From a virus, in IMG/VR virus record IMGVR_UViG_3300009503_000103, positions 1 to 27,292 of that record: a DNA stretch of 27,292 bases, one strand, 5' to 3'. The notes beneath the pieces are model-generated. The model did not search any database and had not been told where the DNA came from. It saw only the letters and a program-made list of their open reading frames with translations. The position numbers and the translations under genes are program-made. Positions 2,598-27,292 of this stretch are shown here, in pieces. Numbering within the stretch: the stretch's first letter is position 1; each line of letters opens with the position of its first letter.

Positions 2598-2849
2598 ATG
2601 GCGCACATGGACGCGCCCAATCGGGAATGCTACAGCGTAACCGGAAACTACAGGACGCGCGTCTGGGTCGCGTTTCTGGAGTGGCCGCGGCCTGGGGAAA
2701 CGGCTGGCGAACTCGTGCAGCGGCTGCACATGAAGTACCAGGCCGATTATGCGCAGCCGACGTTTGACATTGAGGTCAGCCGCTACCAGGACGGGACGCC
2801 GAAGTACGCATTGGTTCGGCTGCGCACATTGGACGTGGAGGAGGTGTGA
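2598..2849 (+). CDS. Hypothetical protein, early operon
   Basis: 83 aa from ATG 2598, or 80 aa from ATG 2607. It follows the previous stop by 1 base with AGGAAGATAGG upstream. The sequence suggests strand-helix-strand-strand (TRVWVAFLEWPRP, AGELVQRLHMKYQ, FDIEVSRYQDG, KYALVRLRTLDVEEV), a small two-layer fold. No motif points to a function. It may be coupled to the RAMP-like gene downstream. Confidence 0.6.
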   Translation: MAHMDAPNRECYSVTGNYRTRVWVAFLEWPRPGETAGELVQRLHMKYQADYAQPTFDIEVSRYQDGTPKYALVRLRTLDVEEV

Positions 2850-2914
2850 AATGCGCTGATACGTCATCTGGCCTAGTTTGGACTCTGACAATCACTCATA
2901 ACAGGGAGGGAGAA

Positions 2915-3508
2915 ATGGAAACCTACAAAGTCAAACTGACGTTTATTGAACCGCTGCTGGGAACCGTACCTATGAACAGGGAAATCTACGAAGAGTACAT
3001 TGCGACGAAAGCGGCAAGCCCAGAAGAAGCCGACCAAGAGGCGCTGACCGTTGAGGAGATGGTAGAGAAAGGCACAACGGGCTTCCATCGCACGCCCGAT
3101 GGCCAGCCCATCTTGTACGACTATGTGCTCAAGGGCTTCTTCAAAGACGCTTGCTCCGCCCTTCGGCGTGCGAAGGGCACGCGAAGCGAAAAGTTGACCA
3201 ACTTCAAGAAGGTCATAGACGGGCTGGTTTTTGTCAGGCCGCGCCAAATCCCTATCACCGTTGCGGGCGAGATGGACTTTTGCGTGCGCCCGCTGCGCGC
3301 GCAGACGGCCCAGGGCGAGAGGGTTACGCTGGCCAGGTCAGAGCAGATTCCGGCGGGCAGCTCCGTAGAGTTCACCGTCAACGTGCTGGGCGTTGTCTCC
3401 GAAGACTTACTGGCCGAGTGGCTGGACTATGGCGCGCTGCGAGGTCTCGGTCAGTGGCGCAATGCCAGTTACGGCGCATTTGAGTACACGATGGAGCGGC
3501 TCGGCTAG
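2915..3508 (+). CDS. Conserved phage protein of unknown function, RAMP/Cas7-like features
   Basis: 197 aa from ATG 2915, selected for its GGGAGGGAG site (2904-2912); the in-frame start at 2846 would overlap the previous gene. The opening (KVKLTFIEPLLGTVPMNREI), the middle (YDYVLKGFFKDACSALRRAKG and KVIDGLVFVRPRQIP) and the close (LGQWRNASYGAFEYTMERL) match, from memory, a family seen in many Firmicutes and gut phages without a known role. The core layout of a hydrophobic strand, a helix following a G-rich turn, and a late G-x-x-R-x-x-x-Y-G-x-F turn recalls RAMP proteins of CRISPR complexes. That link is inference. It is the last early gene before the repeat array and terminator. Confidence 0.75.
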   Translation: METYKVKLTFIEPLLGTVPMNREIYEEYIATKAASPEEADQEALTVEEMVEKGTTGFHRTPDGQPILYDYVLKGFFKDACSALRRAKGTRSEKLTNFKKVIDGLVFVRPRQIPITVAGEMDFCVRPLRAQTAQGERVTLARSEQIPAGSSVEFTVNVLGVVSEDLLAEWLDYGALRGLGQWRNASYGAFEYTMERLG

Positions 3509-3528
3509 GGCAGGGCTGCGCGCAGCTA

Positions 3529-3857
3529 GGCAAAGGCGCGGCGCTGTATGGCGGGGCCGCGCAGAGCAAGGCAAAGGCGACGCTGCGCTCGGCGGGGCTG
3601 TGCGACGCGCGGCAAAGGCAAGGCTTGGCCGCGCAAAGCAAAGGCGTTGCGGCGCGACGCGACGCCTGGCTCGGCGGGGCAAAGGCACTGCTGCGCGACG
3701 CGCGGCAAAGGCGAGGCACTGCTGCGCGACGCGTCGCAAGGGCAGGGCGCGGCTCCGCAGGGCGCGGCAAAGGCGAGGCACTGCTGCGCGACGCGCGGCA
3801 AAGGCAAAGGCTGGGCAACGCTGCGCCCTGCTTCGCAGGGCGACGCACTGCAAAGGC
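3529..3857. repeat. GGCAAAGGC repeat array upstream of the terminase genes
   Basis: GGCAAAGGC occurs exactly at 3529, 3570, 3611, 3678, 3704, 3766 and 3797, with near copies at 3637, 3735 and 3849. Spacings are 41, 41, 26, 41, 26, 31, 31, 31 and 52. The right half is built on a 31-bp unit: a 34-bp stretch at 3700-3733 repeats exactly at 3762-3795, and a 30-bp stretch at 3683-3712 recurs at 3776-3805. An 8-bp hairpin (CGCCCTGC, loop TTC) starts at 3824. No frame here looks like a protein. Its place before terS suits a packaging start (pac) site, but replication, partition or RNA roles are open. Confidence 0.8.
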
Positions 3858-3877
3858 AAAGCATTGCGTAGCCCGGC

Positions 3878-4595: not shown

Positions 4596-5778
4596 ACTGC
4601 GCGTACAGTTGCACCCTGCGCAGCGCGAGGTATTTGAGTCGACCGCGCGACACCGCGTCCTTGCCGCCGGACGCCGCTGGGGCAAGACGCGGCTCGGCGC
4701 GTTGGAGTGTCTTATCTGCGCGCTGCGAGGCGGCCACGCCTGGTGGGTCGCGCCGACGTATCCCGTGGCGCTCATCGGCTGGCGGCTGATGAAGTCCTGG
4801 TCGCGTCGCGTGCCTGGGGCCAGCATCAGCGAGTCGGAGCGGCGCGTGGAGTTTCCAGGAGGCGGATGGCTGCAGGTCAAATCCGCCGACAACCCAGACA
4901 GCCTGCGCGGCGAGGGGCTAGACCTTGCCGTCGTCGACGAGGCCGCCTTTGTGAAAGAGGACGCCTGGACCGAGGCCCTGCGCCCCGCCCTGTCCGACCG
5001 TCAGGGGCGCGCGCTGTTCATCAGCACGCCCGCCGGACGCAACTGGTTCTGGCGTCTCTACCTAGCAGGGCAGACCGAGCCTGGGTGGGCGTCGTGGCAG
5101 TTCCCGACGTCGGCGAATCCGCACATCGCGGCGGAGGAGATTGAGGCGGCCAGGCGCGACATGCCAGAACGGGCGTTTGCCCAGGAGTACCTGGCCCAGT
5201 TTCTGGAGGACGCGGGCGCGGTCTTCCGGCGGGTGCTGGACGCGGCCACGGCCACGCGCAAGTCGGGTCGTGAGGCCGGTCATCAATATGTGATGGGCGT
5301 GGACTGGGCAAAATCGTCAGACTATACGGTCATCACGGTGGTGGACATCACGGCGAACGAGATGGTGGACATGGACAGGTTCAGCGAAATTGATTATGCG
5401 CTGCAGACCCAGCGGCTGCGCCTGCTCTACGAGCGATGGCGGCCCGAGGCCATCGTGGCCGAGCGCAATGCGATGGGCGAGCCGCTGGTGGAGCAACTGC
5501 AGCGCGCAGGCCTGCCCGTGACTCCATTCACAACTACGAATGCCACGAAGGCGCAAATTATAGATGGCCTGGCGCTGGCGCTGGAGCGCGGAGACCTGCG
5601 CATTCTGAACGATCCGACGCTGGTCGGTGAGTTGCAGTCGTTCACGATGGAGCGGCTTCCCAGCGGCCTACTGCGCTACACCGCGCCCGCAGGACTGCAT
5701 GACGACTGCGTCATGTCGCTGGCGCTGGCGTGGTATGGGGCGTCGCAGTACAGCACGCCCGCCATTATTGAGGTGTGA
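4582..5778 (+). CDS. terL: Terminase large subunit (packaging ATPase and nuclease)
   Basis: 398 aa, the motor that pumps DNA into the prohead and cuts it. Walker A is AGRRWGKT (residues 29-36), Walker B LAVVDE (115-120), and the coupling motif ISTPAGRN (147-154). The C-terminal RNase H-like nuclease shows its acidic residues at D241 (VMGVDWAKSSDY), E294 (VAERNAMG) and D374/D375 (GLHDDCVMSLALAW). Both domains are complete, although the protein is on the short side for TerL. The start lies within terS, so translation is probably coupled. Confidence 0.95.
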   Translation: MAEIELRVQLHPAQREVFESTARHRVLAAGRRWGKTRLGALECLICALRGGHAWWVAPTYPVALIGWRLMKSWSRRVPGASISESERRVEFPGGGWLQVKSADNPDSLRGEGLDLAVVDEAAFVKEDAWTEALRPALSDRQGRALFISTPAGRNWFWRLYLAGQTEPGWASWQFPTSANPHIAAEEIEAARRDMPERAFAQEYLAQFLEDAGAVFRRVLDAATATRKSGREAGHQYVMGVDWAKSSDYTVITVVDITANEMVDMDRFSEIDYALQTQRLRLLYERWRPEAIVAERNAMGEPLVEQLQRAGLPVTPFTTTNATKAQIIDGLALALERGDLRILNDPTLVGELQSFTMERLPSGLLRYTAPAGLHDDCVMSLALAWYGASQYSTPAIIEV

Positions 5779-5780
5779 GC

Positions 5781-7772
5781 ATGAATCGCATTCGCGCGTG
5801 GATTTTCGGCGGAGACAGCCCCGCCCTGCGCACGGTTGTTTCGCAGGAGCAATTCCTGGCGTTGTCGTCGGGCGAGCGGGACGTGGAGTCCGTGTCCAGC
5901 GCCGTTGACGCCTACAATCTAGTGTCCTGGGTCTACCGTTGTGCCAATCTGCGCGCGATGGCGTTGTCGGCCATTCCGGTGGAGTTCTGGCGCGGCGACG
6001 TGCAACTGGACGCCCCACCCGTGCCGGTCGCGGACATGGCCGCGCTCCTGCGCGACATTGAGATGAGTTTGTGCCTGCACGGCGCGGCATATGTGCTGAA
6101 GCAAACCCGTGGGCGGACGCTGGTCGGATTGCAGTTGCTGAACGCGGCGACGGTCTCCGTGAAGGCCGACCCGTTCCAGGGCATCACGGCGTTTGAGCAG
6201 CACGCCGGAAGCACGACGCTGAAGTTCGCGCCGGAGCAGATGGTCTATATCCGACTGTACAACGCAGCCGATGATGTTGGCCCTGGGCGCGCGCCAGCGC
6301 GTGTGGCCCTCCAGGCCGCGCAACTGGCGCACAACGCCAACCGCTACGTTGCCAGGTTTTTTGAGAATGGAGCCATTCCCGCGGTTGTGCTCACGACCGA
6401 GCAGGCGATGACTGAAACGGACGCGGAGCGGGTGCGCACAGTCTGGCAAAAGATGTTCGGCGGCGTTGCGCGGGCCTGGCGCACGGCGATCTTGCAGCGC
6501 GGGCTGGAGCCGCGCGTGATCGGTTCGCAGGCCAAAGACCTGTCCGTCGCACCGCTCCTGTCGGAAGCCAGGCAGCAGATCGCGGTCGCGTTCGGCATCC
6601 CGCAGACATTGCTAGAGGACGCGGCCAACTTCGCGACGGCGCGAGAGCACAAACTGTCGTTCTACTACGAGACCGTGTTCCCTCAGGCGCGGATCATCGC
6701 GTCGGCGTTCAATGCCCAGTTGTTTTCCCAGACGGGCGTGGAGATGCGGTTTGACTTCAACGCGGTGGAGGCGGTGCAACAAGACGAGGCCACGAAGGCC
6801 GCGGCCCTTGCACAACTTGTGCAATTAGGCATCATCTCCAGCGACGAGGCGCGTGAGGAACTCGGATACGAGCCGCGCGCGAGGGCATCCGAGGCCGCGC
6901 CCGCCGAAGCGACACAACCCGCCGAGGCTGTGCCCGCCGAGGCCGCGAGAGACCTGGCGCGCTGGCGGGAAAAAGCGAGACGGGCCGTCAAGCGCAGCGG
7001 TTCTGGCGACGTGGATTTTGAGAGCGAGCACATCCCGCCGTGGCTGTACGCTGCCATCCGCCGCCGCCTGGTGGACATGGACGTGCAGGCTGCGTTCGCG
7101 CCAGCGCTGCGCGCGTTCTCACAGGACAAGGCGGAACGCGCCCTGCAGGAAAAACTGAACGGCGTCTACTCCAAGCATGTGGACAAGATCGCCAAGCGCG
7201 CGGCCTCTGGAGAGATGCCCGACGCAGAACTGGACGCGCTGGCCGATGACCTGACCAGCACCCTCGTGGCGCAGTTGACGCTGACCGTAGCCGATGCGGC
7301 GCTGGATATGGGTATTCAGGTCGGTGTCGGGTTTGAGTACGACGAGTTACTCTCCGACGCAGCGCAGTGGGCGAAGCAGTACACGTATGACCTCGTGAAG
7401 GGCATAAAGCAGACGCAGGTTGCGCACCTGCAGAACGTGATCAGCCAACTCGTGGACGGCAAACTGACCCGCGATGACGCGGTGGCCATGATAGAGCCGC
7501 TCTTCGGCCCTGTGCGCGCGGGCATGATCGCCACGACCGAGACCACACGGGCGATGTCCCAGGCGACGGAGTTGTACACGAAGCAGTTGCGGGAAACCGG
7601 GCATGATGTCGTGGAGCGATGGCTGACGGCGGAAGACGAGCGGGTGTGCGACGTTTGCGGCCCGCTGGATCACACGCTGGAGGACGTCTGGCGGCCCCAG
7701 TTTCCGAGCGGCCCGCCAGCCCATGTTGGCTGCAGATGTAAAACGGTCGTGGAGGTGCGCCGTGGAAAGTGA
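5781..7772 (+). CDS. Portal protein fused to a MuF-like minor head protein
   Basis: 663 aa from ATG 5781 (GAGGTG upstream, 2 bases after the terL stop). Residues about 1-380 are an HK97-type portal: YNLVSWVYRCANLRAMALS near the start, then a long portal core ending in SSDEAREELGYEP. An Ala/Glu/Pro-rich linker (about 385-400) leads to a helical region and a C-terminal MuF/SPP1 gp7-like domain (ATTETTRAMSQATEL, then VCDVCGPLDHT and HVGCRCKTVV). Portal and MuF are usually separate genes, so this is a fusion. It forms the DNA gateway, with the MuF part probably inside the capsid or at the portal. Confidence 0.9.
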   Translation: MNRIRAWIFGGDSPALRTVVSQEQFLALSSGERDVESVSSAVDAYNLVSWVYRCANLRAMALSAIPVEFWRGDVQLDAPPVPVADMAALLRDIEMSLCLHGAAYVLKQTRGRTLVGLQLLNAATVSVKADPFQGITAFEQHAGSTTLKFAPEQMVYIRLYNAADDVGPGRAPARVALQAAQLAHNANRYVARFFENGAIPAVVLTTEQAMTETDAERVRTVWQKMFGGVARAWRTAILQRGLEPRVIGSQAKDLSVAPLLSEARQQIAVAFGIPQTLLEDAANFATAREHKLSFYYETVFPQARIIASAFNAQLFSQTGVEMRFDFNAVEAVQQDEATKAAALAQLVQLGIISSDEAREELGYEPRARASEAAPAEATQPAEAVPAEAARDLARWREKARRAVKRSGSGDVDFESEHIPPWLYAAIRRRLVDMDVQAAFAPALRAFSQDKAERALQEKLNGVYSKHVDKIAKRAASGEMPDAELDALADDLTSTLVAQLTLTVADAALDMGIQVGVGFEYDELLSDAAQWAKQYTYDLVKGIKQTQVAHLQNVISQLVDGKLTRDDAVAMIEPLFGPVRAGMIATTETTRAMSQATELYTKQLRETGHDVVERWLTAEDERVCDVCGPLDHTLEDVWRPQFPSGPPAHVGCRCKTVVEVRRGK

Positions 7773-8241: not shown

Positions 8242-8253
8242 CAGGAGGTGCGT

Positions 8254-10440
8254 ATGGCTTGGAAAGCGAACGGCAAAGCGGATTTGCCCATCGCGGACAG
8301 GGCGATGGCCTGGGACGCGGATGCCGCCGAGGCCCGCGTCAGAAAGTGGGCGGGCGGCGAGGACAACATGGACTGGCCGAAGTACAGGAAGGCCTTCTTC
8401 GCATACGACGACGAGCGGCCCGAGGAGTTCGGCGGGTACAAGTTGCCGTTTGCCGACGTGGTGGACGGCGAACTCAAGGCTGTCCCGCGCGGCATTATGG
8501 CCGTGGCCGCCGTCCTACAGGGCGGGCACGGCGGGACGGACTTGCCCGCCGACGTGCAAAACGAAATCCGAGACAGGGTCGCGGCATACTACCACAAGTG
8601 GGATGAGGACGCGCCCTGGGAGCGCAAGAGCGCGCCCGCCATCCGCGAGGGGCGTGTGCTCTCCGAAAAGAACCGCAAGTTGGTAGAGGCGGCGATCCAG
8701 CAGAGCAAGGAGGCCATTGCTGCGCTGCAGGCGCTTTTGGACGCCGCCGCGCTTCCGTCGGAGGAGCGCAGGAGCGTCGTACAGGAGTTGATGACGGTTC
8801 GGTCGCTGGGCGGAAACCGCGTCGGCGGCTACGGTATTGTCTGGGGCGGGCGGGATTTGTATGGCACCTATTTCACGCCTGCGACCGAAACGTGGAGAGA
8901 CCGGTATCCGGCCCCGCCCGTCCTGTATGACCACGGCTTTGATGAGAAACTCGGCAAGCGCCCCATCGGCAAAGTGATAGAACGCAGGCGAGACGACATC
9001 GGCGAATGGATCGAGGCGCAGTTGGAAGTCCATGAGCAATATCGCCAGGCGCTTGCGCAACTCATGGAGGCGGGCGCGCTTGGGTGGTCTACCGGCAGCG
9101 CCAAGCACCTCGTGGAGGTGGCCGATGATGGCGAAATCAAGCAATGGCCTGTCGTTGAGGTGTCTTTGACGCCCGCGCCCGCCGAGCCGCGGACGCTGGG
9201 GGTTCACGAGTTGCGTTCACTCGGACTGCGCGTGCCGGGCCTGGACGACGCCGAAGCAGCGCCCTCCGGCGCTGGGCGATCGTTGCCCGAAGCAGAGCAG
9301 CCCGAAGACGAAAAAACTACACAAGTACAAGGAGATGAGCAAATGGCGGACGAAATCAAGACTGGGGAAGTTCAGGCCCCGGCCCCACAAGTGAACCTGG
9401 ACGAATTGGCCGCGAAGGTAGCGGAGCGGCTGGCACCGACCGTGAAGGGCGCGATTGCGACTCCGGCGGTCATCAAGAAGAGCGGCTTGGGCGACAGTCC
9501 GGTCAAGGCGTTCCTGCACTGGGCCCGCACCGGCGACATCGGCGCTGTCAAGACGGCGGTCGTCTGGGACGAGGCGAACGACACCCAGGGTGCTGTAACC
9601 GTGCCCGACGACTTCTACAACCAGATCATCATGAAGGCGCACGAGCAGAGTATCCCGCGCAAGATGGGTGCGATGGTGATCACCACGAGCCGCGACGTCG
9701 TGCGCGTCCCAACGGAGGGCACGCCGCTGGCCAAATTTGCCCTGACCGCGGAGGAGTCCGGCTCCTACGATGAGACCGCAGTCGAGCCCTTCGGCGGCGG
9801 CGACGTTACCGTCTACAAACTGACCCGCCTCGTGAAGGTCACGAACGAACTACTGGAAGACTCGGCTTTCAACCTGGAGCAGATTCTGTCGGGGATGTTC
9901 GCCGACGCCATCGCGCTGACCGAGAACTACTACGCCCTGCGTGGCACCGGTTCAGGTCAGCCGGAGGGCGTGCTGGCAGGAGGCACCCTCGGCAAGACAT
10001 TCGCAAGCGCCAGCACCATCGCGGCGGCGGAGGTCATGGATTTGTACTACGCGCTATCCAGCGTGTACCGCTCCAACCCGACCGTCGCGTGGGTTATGGC
10101 AGACGGTACGGAGAAGGTCATCCGCAAAATCCAGGCCACGTCCAGCGCTGGGGAGTTCCTGTTCCAGGTAACGCCCGCGGGCGTGATTGACCCGAATTCT
10201 CTACTTGGCAAGCCGGTGTTCAACAGTAGCCAGATGCCGGACATTGCAGCGAGCGCGAAGACCATCGTGATCGGCGACTGGAGCAAGTTCGTGATTGTGG
10301 AGCGCACGGGCATGACCGTGTCCCGCAACCCGTACCTGTACCAGGCGAACGACATCACGGGGTTCTTCGCCAAGATCAGGCTGGGCATGAAGGTGGCACA
10401 GGCGGAAGCGTTCCAGTACGGCCAGCATCCGACGGCCTAG
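8254..10440 (+). CDS. Fused prohead protease and HK97-type major capsid protein
   Basis: 728 aa from ATG 8254 (AGGAGG just upstream). Residues 1-125 form an N-terminal domain often attached to phage proteases (YKLPFADVVDGELKAVPRGI). A helical linker is followed by an HK97 protease at about 180-320: GYGIVWGGRDLYG, the likely catalytic His in VLYDHGFD (H227) and Ser in ALGWSTGSAKH (S279). An acidic and coiled segment (about 335-410) would act as scaffold. The rest is an HK97 capsid fold (TVPDDFYNQII, RTGMTVSRNPYLYQ). Protease and capsid are normally separate genes. The capsid also has its own internal start. Confidence 0.9.
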   Translation: MAWKANGKADLPIADRAMAWDADAAEARVRKWAGGEDNMDWPKYRKAFFAYDDERPEEFGGYKLPFADVVDGELKAVPRGIMAVAAVLQGGHGGTDLPADVQNEIRDRVAAYYHKWDEDAPWERKSAPAIREGRVLSEKNRKLVEAAIQQSKEAIAALQALLDAAALPSEERRSVVQELMTVRSLGGNRVGGYGIVWGGRDLYGTYFTPATETWRDRYPAPPVLYDHGFDEKLGKRPIGKVIERRRDDIGEWIEAQLEVHEQYRQALAQLMEAGALGWSTGSAKHLVEVADDGEIKQWPVVEVSLTPAPAEPRTLGVHELRSLGLRVPGLDDAEAAPSGAGRSLPEAEQPEDEKTTQVQGDEQMADEIKTGEVQAPAPQVNLDELAAKVAERLAPTVKGAIATPAVIKKSGLGDSPVKAFLHWARTGDIGAVKTAVVWDEANDTQGAVTVPDDFYNQIIMKAHEQSIPRKMGAMVITTSRDVVRVPTEGTPLAKFALTAEESGSYDETAVEPFGGGDVTVYKLTRLVKVTNELLEDSAFNLEQILSGMFADAIALTENYYALRGTGSGQPEGVLAGGTLGKTFASASTIAAAEVMDLYYALSSVYRSNPTVAWVMADGTEKVIRKIQATSSAGEFLFQVTPAGVIDPNSLLGKPVFNSSQMPDIAASAKTIVIGDWSKFVIVERTGMTVSRNPYLYQANDITGFFAKIRLGMKVAQAEAFQYGQHPTA
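9343..10440 (+). CDS. Major capsid protein from an internal in-frame start
   Basis: 365 aa, the usual length for an HK97 capsid protein with its delta domain. Inside the protease-capsid frame, ATG 9343 is preceded by AAGGAG (9329-9334) with 8 bases between. The 30 bases before it are A-rich, like a former gene boundary, unlike the GC-rich flanks. The product begins MADEIKTGEVQAPAPQVNLDE, where a helical delta/scaffold segment precedes the shell domain. Capsid needs hundreds of copies and protease few, so an internal start would set the ratio. The start is inferred, not shown. Confidence 0.75.
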   Translation: MADEIKTGEVQAPAPQVNLDELAAKVAERLAPTVKGAIATPAVIKKSGLGDSPVKAFLHWARTGDIGAVKTAVVWDEANDTQGAVTVPDDFYNQIIMKAHEQSIPRKMGAMVITTSRDVVRVPTEGTPLAKFALTAEESGSYDETAVEPFGGGDVTVYKLTRLVKVTNELLEDSAFNLEQILSGMFADAIALTENYYALRGTGSGQPEGVLAGGTLGKTFASASTIAAAEVMDLYYALSSVYRSNPTVAWVMADGTEKVIRKIQATSSAGEFLFQVTPAGVIDPNSLLGKPVFNSSQMPDIAASAKTIVIGDWSKFVIVERTGMTVSRNPYLYQANDITGFFAKIRLGMKVAQAEAFQYGQHPTA

Positions 10441-25420: not shown

Positions 25421-25648
25421 ATGGGAACGATGCACTTCGTGTACACCCCTGACGGCGTCTGGGTCGGGCCGTTCCCCCACCTGACCGACGCCAACCTCTG
25501 GGCCGCCGAGCATGGCGGCTATGCTTATGTCCAGTACGCCGCGCGGCGGCGCGGCTGCAATCCGAGCGAGGCCGTCCCGCCGGACGCCTACGCAAAAAAG
25601 ATGAAGGAGGGAGAACATGAGCGAGGAAAGATGCATTCGGTGCGGTAG
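25421..25648 (+). CDS. Hypothetical protein, early operon
   Basis: 75 aa from ATG 25421, with GAAGGAAC upstream, one base after the regulator. It starts with a small strand-turn unit (HFVYTPDGVWVGPFPHLTDA) ending in a helix and aromatic segment (AAEHGGYAYVQYAARRRG). No family recognised. It overlaps the zinc-ribbon gene by 32 bases; the strong ribosome site of that gene lies within its last codons. Confidence 0.65.
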   Translation: MGTMHFVYTPDGVWVGPFPHLTDANLWAAEHGGYAYVQYAARRRGCNPSEAVPPDAYAKKMKEGEHERGKMHSVR

Positions 25649-27135: not shown

Positions 27136-27177
27136 ATGTACAAGATTGCTCTAGTATACAGTATCAGCCACAACTGA
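27136..27177 (+). CDS. 13-codon leader-like ORF upstream of the initiator
   Basis: ATG 27136 has a good ribosome site (GGAGG) and gives MYKIALVYSISHN. Its TGA overlaps a second ATG (27177), which opens a 13-codon frame (MADGTITDEGLVL, 27177-27218, equal to 8-49 in the left copy). They may be translated leader peptides or one small gene split by an indel at the contig join. Confidence 0.3.
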   Translation: MYKIALVYSISHN

Positions 27178-27292
27178 TGGCTGATGGCACTATCACCGAT
27201 GAGGGGCTTGTCTTGTAGCCGTCTGCGCGAAGGAATCTTCCGACTAGCCGCATTATGTAGAGGTGGCGCATGGGCGCGTTCCTGACCGATGT
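27170..27292. repeat. Terminal overlap, right copy (circular contig end)
   Basis: Exact copy of 1-123. It holds the initiator leader and the first 23 bases of that gene (from 27270), which is therefore cut here and complete at 101-1129. Confidence 0.95.

Follow-up and report, generated by a model that had tools for sequence, protein, structure and literature searches.

Each prohead of a phage must receive a suitable number of proteases, and how this is achieved is a basic question of assembly. It is raised here by a viral sequence of 27,292 nucleotides (hereafter, the window) in which a prohead protease and a complete capsid protein occupy one open reading frame, with a second start signal between them. 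Our best explanation, to which we assign a probability of about 0.87 on sequence and comparative evidence, is a two-start, in-frame nested head gene that would yield a 728-aa protease-capsid protein and a 365-aa capsid. The first and last 123 nt of the window (positions 1 to 123 and 27170 to 27292) match exactly as a terminal direct repeat, which makes it likely that the record represents a complete, circular genome with a length of 27,169 bp.

Domain organization of the fused frame

The frame holds, in this order, an S78 prohead protease and an HK97-type capsid (Table 1), which confirms the fusion of protease and capsid given in the preliminary description. Peptidase_S78 (PF04586) matches with 24.9 bits against a curated cut-off of 21, and Phage_capsid (PF05065) matches residues 446-724 with an E value of 4.2e-57; PHROGs agrees with Pfam on both assignments. 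In Foldseek searches, the capsid domain matched the RcGTA capsid (6e-17), the HK97 prohead (3.5e-12) and the T5 head. An AlphaFold2 model of the fusion (overall pLDDT 72) contains a confident protease at about residues 181-307 and a confident capsid at about 445-724. Met 364, the putative internal start, sits within the mostly disordered linker at residues 314-380, and the 82 residues that begin there are modeled with low confidence as a region with two short helices.

The first 130 or so residues of the fusion are common to two relatives, L002 and L167, and more weakly to a third, L082. The linker has diverged in sequence even between the window and its closest relatives. H227, S279 and H285 are invariant among 31 aligned relatives, as expected for a working protease; from knowledge of the S78 family, we take H227 and S279 to be the catalytic histidine and serine.

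Table 1. Features of the fused protease-capsid locus in the window
Feature	Position	Strand	Basis
Fused protease-capsid ORF, 728 aa	8254-10440	+	Open frame; Pfam and PHROGs
AGGAGG, Shine-Dalgarno for full-length product, 5 nt before ATG 8254	8243-8248	+	Sequence; duplex -10.9 kcal/mol
N-terminal region of fusion, about 130 aa, without Pfam match	8254-8643	+	Alignments
Peptidase_S78 prohead protease domain, residues 189-314	8818-9195	+	Pfam; confident in AlphaFold2 model
Protease-capsid linker, predicted disordered	9196-9342	+	AlphaFold2: most of residues 314-380 have pLDDT <50
AAGGAG, putative internal Shine-Dalgarno	9329-9334	+	Sequence; same motif and same 8-nt spacing in L167 and L002
Predicted inner frame for the capsid, 365 aa, beginning at ATG 9343	9343-10440	+	Sequence signals, relatives
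N-terminal region of predicted inner product, 82 residues, in place of HK97 scaffold (delta) domain	9343-9588	+	
HK97-fold capsid domain, residues 446-724	9589-10425	+	Pfam, Foldseek

Elsewhere in the window, a 665-aa ORF (5775-7772) fuses portal and Mu-F-like minor head domains; in L167, a similar-looking ORF (556-2544) lies upstream of the protease-capsid fusion. This portal-MuF fusion belongs to the same operon as the protease-capsid frame and provides a contrast, in that its junction contains no internal Shine-Dalgarno-ATG pair. Two repeat regions were also observed. Overlapping G+C-rich repeats with units of about 31 nt resembling GGCAAAGGC occupy positions 3509-3867, just downstream of the ORF at 2846-3508. 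Within the first ORF, positions 435-524 hold two 45-nt copies of a sequence that begins AGGGGGGTGTAAA, with palindromic GTGTAAA/TTTACAC arms.

Fused and split relatives

Relatives were collected in several scans. A terminase scan of viral contigs gave 80 loci, of which several are fused and several split, and an alignment of seven fused proteins, also scanned on viral contigs, gave 80 further viral loci. These two scans together contain 89 fused frames. Genome assemblies were scanned with protease-type patterns from a second alignment (A2), and the best 80 loci were taken. Seventy-nine of these are fused, nearly all of them in Chloroflexota; the remaining one is cut by the end of its contig, and none is split. 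The related fused frames thus total 168, a count that, like the proportion of fused to split loci, leans towards fused forms because loci were ranked by similarity to a fused query. The best genome locus, L167, is 58% identical to the window protein over nearly its whole length.

Trees of the capsid domain and of the protease domain place fused and split forms in several groups, and the capsid tree forces at least two changes between them. The fusion has therefore been gained or lost more than once.

Scans of viral contigs with single proteins returned no relative for the full-length query, none for the capsid alone and one for the protease alone. Among 50,697 phage records, none covers at least 80% of any of four fused queries. 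Matches in Azospirillum phage Cd and a Microcystis phage that begin before the capsid domain proved to be separate genes, not fusions. Salinibacter phages that carry a related protease were also rejected as fusions of this type, since the protease and the next gene occupy different ORFs. In Salinibacter phage 5_12 (L255, 1042-3846), the S78-like protease is found towards the C-terminus of a 934-aa ORF, and the same arrangement of a related protease occurs in 184 Salinibacter phage records, suggesting that the protease is instead fused to an upstream head protein.

Assemblies of Chloroflexota (Anaerolineae; L167-L246) often contain protease-capsid fusions, and some of the contigs span several hundred kb to 1 Mb. 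These loci could be either prophages or GTA-like elements. The host of the phage in the window is probably a member of the Chloroflexota, and its anti-Shine-Dalgarno sequence and start usage are accordingly presumed.

Comparison with known systems

Fusions of prohead proteases with capsids have been described before. The thaumarchaeal proviruses NCAV2-Pro1 and NitIsl-Pro1 carry an S78 prohead protease domain and an HK97-type capsid fused in one gene (PMC6563490). By description, this is the same fusion as in the window, although the hosts are archaeal, and we found no mention of an internal capsid start there (PMC6563490). In Pseudomonas phage MD8, a ClpP-type protease, scaffold and capsid form a single gene, and the MD8 paper describes no nested capsid start (PMC8508860). 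The Gifsy-2 record likewise has protease, scaffold and capsid in a single reading frame. Both resemble the window in having protease and capsid in one frame, but their proteases are ClpP-type and their middle regions longer, whereas the protease of the window is assigned to S78 by Pfam. We also observed that, at codons 185 and 220, the Gifsy-2 ClpP-capsid ORF (L166, 2472-4562) contains in-frame ATGs with Shine-Dalgarno-like motifs.

Lambda C/Nu3 and herpesvirus UL26/UL26.5 each produce two in-frame products with a shared C-terminus, the longer of which carries the protease. In both, the inner product is a scaffold, and the capsid protein comes from a separate gene. The sequence signals in the window likewise suggest an inner in-frame start and a shared C-terminus, but the predicted inner product is a whole capsid fold rather than a separate scaffold. 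The parallel with lambda C/Nu3 drawn in the preliminary description thus holds for the mechanism but not for what the inner product is.

In HK97, genes 4 and 5 encode the protease and a capsid protein with an N-terminal scaffold domain as separate genes (PMC10275583, PMC8508860). The window has the same protein families in the same order, but in one frame with a putative nested start, and the N-terminal region of its capsid has 82 residues in place of 103. Our searches of the open-access literature turned up no nested capsid start within a protease-capsid fusion; the fusions themselves were already known.

A start signal inside the frame

The internal signal spans positions 9329-9345, with ATG 9343-9345 lying in frame with the ORF that begins at 8254 and 8 nt past the AAGGAG. 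AAGGAG followed by ATG after 4 to 9 nt occurs only three times on the + strand of the window, and the other two occurrences, at 25604 and 26729, directly precede ORFs that start at 25617 and 26742. The signal stands in an A-rich patch, where GC content over 60 nt is 0.47 compared with 0.64 for the ORF (1st percentile). The folding energy around ATG 9343 is -3.3 kcal/mol, whereas the mean for the ORF is -18.4 kcal/mol, and only 1.4% of segments along the ORF are as weakly folded. The frame from this ATG encodes 365 aa and includes the whole capsid domain according to translation and Pfam. The preliminary description of the motif, its A-rich surroundings and the length of the inner frame was borne out.

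The two starts differ in strength. The upstream Shine-Dalgarno pairs more strongly than the internal one (-10.9 versus -8.0 kcal/mol), but the upstream site is more folded (-12.0 versus -3.3 kcal/mol).

Conservation of the putative internal start among relatives

The strongest rival to a second start is a sole full-length fusion from which the protease releases itself by cleavage, the course assumed for tripartite ClpP-scaffold-capsid genes. On this view, the Shine-Dalgarno inside the frame would be a by-product of a charged linker rich in Gly, Glu and Lys. In its favor, the residues of this acidic, disordered linker are of a kind encoded by purine-rich codons, and Gifsy-2 and MD8 demonstrate that protease and capsid can function from one ORF. 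The fused relatives, reduced to 61 non-redundant representatives by clustering at 75% identity, nevertheless argue against it in several ways.

First, Shine-Dalgarno cores are more frequent in the linkers than synonymous recoding predicts. We considered linkers with only one in-frame ATG, which leave no choice of a best site. Ten of the 13 such linkers have a 5-base core, compared with 2/383 control ATGs in the capsid domain, 1/79 in the protease domain and 10/278 out of frame. Synonymous recoding predicts 2.9 of the 13, and none of 20,000 draws reached 10. Among all representatives, 41/61 have a linker with a 5-base Shine-Dalgarno and ATG, where recoding leads to an expectation of 16.8 and a highest draw of 28; in the larger capsid domain, the same combination occurs in 2/61. 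These counts replaced an earlier duplex-energy recoding test over all linker ATGs, whose combined result (Fisher P = 0.002, with 9% of representatives individually below 0.05) is modest and can be read in favor of self-cleavage. That test is weak because G-rich recodings also pair well and because several ATGs compete.

Second, the core is tied to an in-frame start codon at a defined distance. AGGAG is followed by an in-frame ATG after 3-11 nt in 21/35 cases within linkers, compared with 2/23 in the rest of the ORF (P = 9e-5). The most common spacing is 8 nt, the exact value in 12 of the 21 linker pairs, and the AAGGAG-8-ATG of the window is identical in L167 and L002 even though the linkers are poorly conserved. 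When cores of at least 4 bases and either ATG or GTG are allowed, a linker site is found in 59/61 representatives. The presence of the motif in relatives, which had been proposed as a check, is thus established, although roughly one representative in three has a weak core.

Third, in the examples seen, the start codon is exchanged only with GTG. ATG and GTG replace one another at matching linker positions, with downstream residues kept, in the pairs L132/L115, L195/L223 and L185/L208 (MSDIKEAVKAA/VSDIKEAVKAA, MTDNHL/VTDSNI and MNREDL/VNRDEI). In the Chloroflexota group, the aligned start column contains Met in 63 sequences, Val in two and other residues in seven, which are possibly misaligned.

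Fourth, the internal sites are less folded than the remainder of the linker (P = 6e-11), with a median at the 2.5th percentile of folding within the ORF; this comparison used the ATG with the best Shine-Dalgarno in each linker. Among single-ATG linkers, 11/13 fall under the 10th percentile, and the clear exception is L115, which seems to start at GTG. None of these four features follows from a purely acidic linker, and we regard self-cleavage of a sole product as unlikely.

An upstream start with a Shine-Dalgarno is present in 54/60 representatives. Because these signals are kept and the catalytic residues are invariant, the full-length product also appears to be maintained. Some split relatives (L009 and L062) have the same Shine-Dalgarno-ATG pair with a stop codon in the spacer.

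Less probable still is that the internal Shine-Dalgarno merely pauses ribosomes between protease and capsid to aid folding, with no initiation. Its position between two domains, within the disordered linker, would suit such a role, yet a pause needs no start codon, and an in-frame ATG or GTG is kept at start-like spacing. The least probable reading, a sequencing or assembly error in the run of six A residues near 9311 that joins truly separate genes and makes ATG 9343 an ordinary gene start, draws on the fact that one extra base upstream would bring TGA 9336-9338 into frame immediately ahead of the ATG, as in the split relatives L009 and L062, but such a frameshift error, anticipated in the preliminary description, is ruled out by the 168 fused relatives from many samples, which include L167 without such a stop.

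A programmed -1 frameshift at the same run, which would end the protease at TGA 9336, was rejected on inspection, since the frame does not fit an X-XXY-YYZ slip; L002 and L167 also have no TGA stop. The TGA itself, in the -1 frame between the internal Shine-Dalgarno and the ATG, looks as if left from a split arrangement, and is absent in L167 and L002.

Proposed products and assembly

The nested-start reading can be stated as follows. Initiation at 8254 would produce the 728-aa protein, consisting of the N-terminal region, S78 protease, disordered linker and whole capsid. Independent initiation at 9343, from a Shine-Dalgarno embedded in linker codons, would produce the 365-aa HK97-type capsid with a short scaffold-like N-terminal region. 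The comparative sequence evidence strongly supports two in-frame products from one frame, the inner of which is a whole capsid, as the preliminary description had proposed.

Its further proposal that capsid is made in excess, with only a little protease-capsid, is not supported. The stronger upstream Shine-Dalgarno gives no reason to expect the inner product in large excess, and because the internal one is weaker but lies in a less folded site, the product ratio cannot be read from the sequence.

We infer that both products are made and that they co-assemble into one shell, which is expected because they share the capsid domain. The N-terminal part of the HK97 capsid protein is its scaffold domain, which is directed towards the interior (PMC10275583). 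By analogy, a protease fused upstream of the corresponding region would be turned towards the inside of the prohead, and the fusion would be packaged into the shell. After assembly, the protease could trim the scaffold region and itself.

Implications

One frame could encode both the targeting of the protease, by fusion to capsid, and its dosage, by the relative strengths of two starts. If the internal start is used, one gene would supply both the shell and its built-in protease. Gene callers likely report only the 728-aa product, so the size and N-terminus of the virion capsid may be misannotated across such phages. We somewhat favor the broader view that, in a large group of phages and prophages mainly of Chloroflexota, every head would be a mix of capsid and protease-capsid in which start strengths alone set the number of proteases, and that this layout is ancient and conserved.
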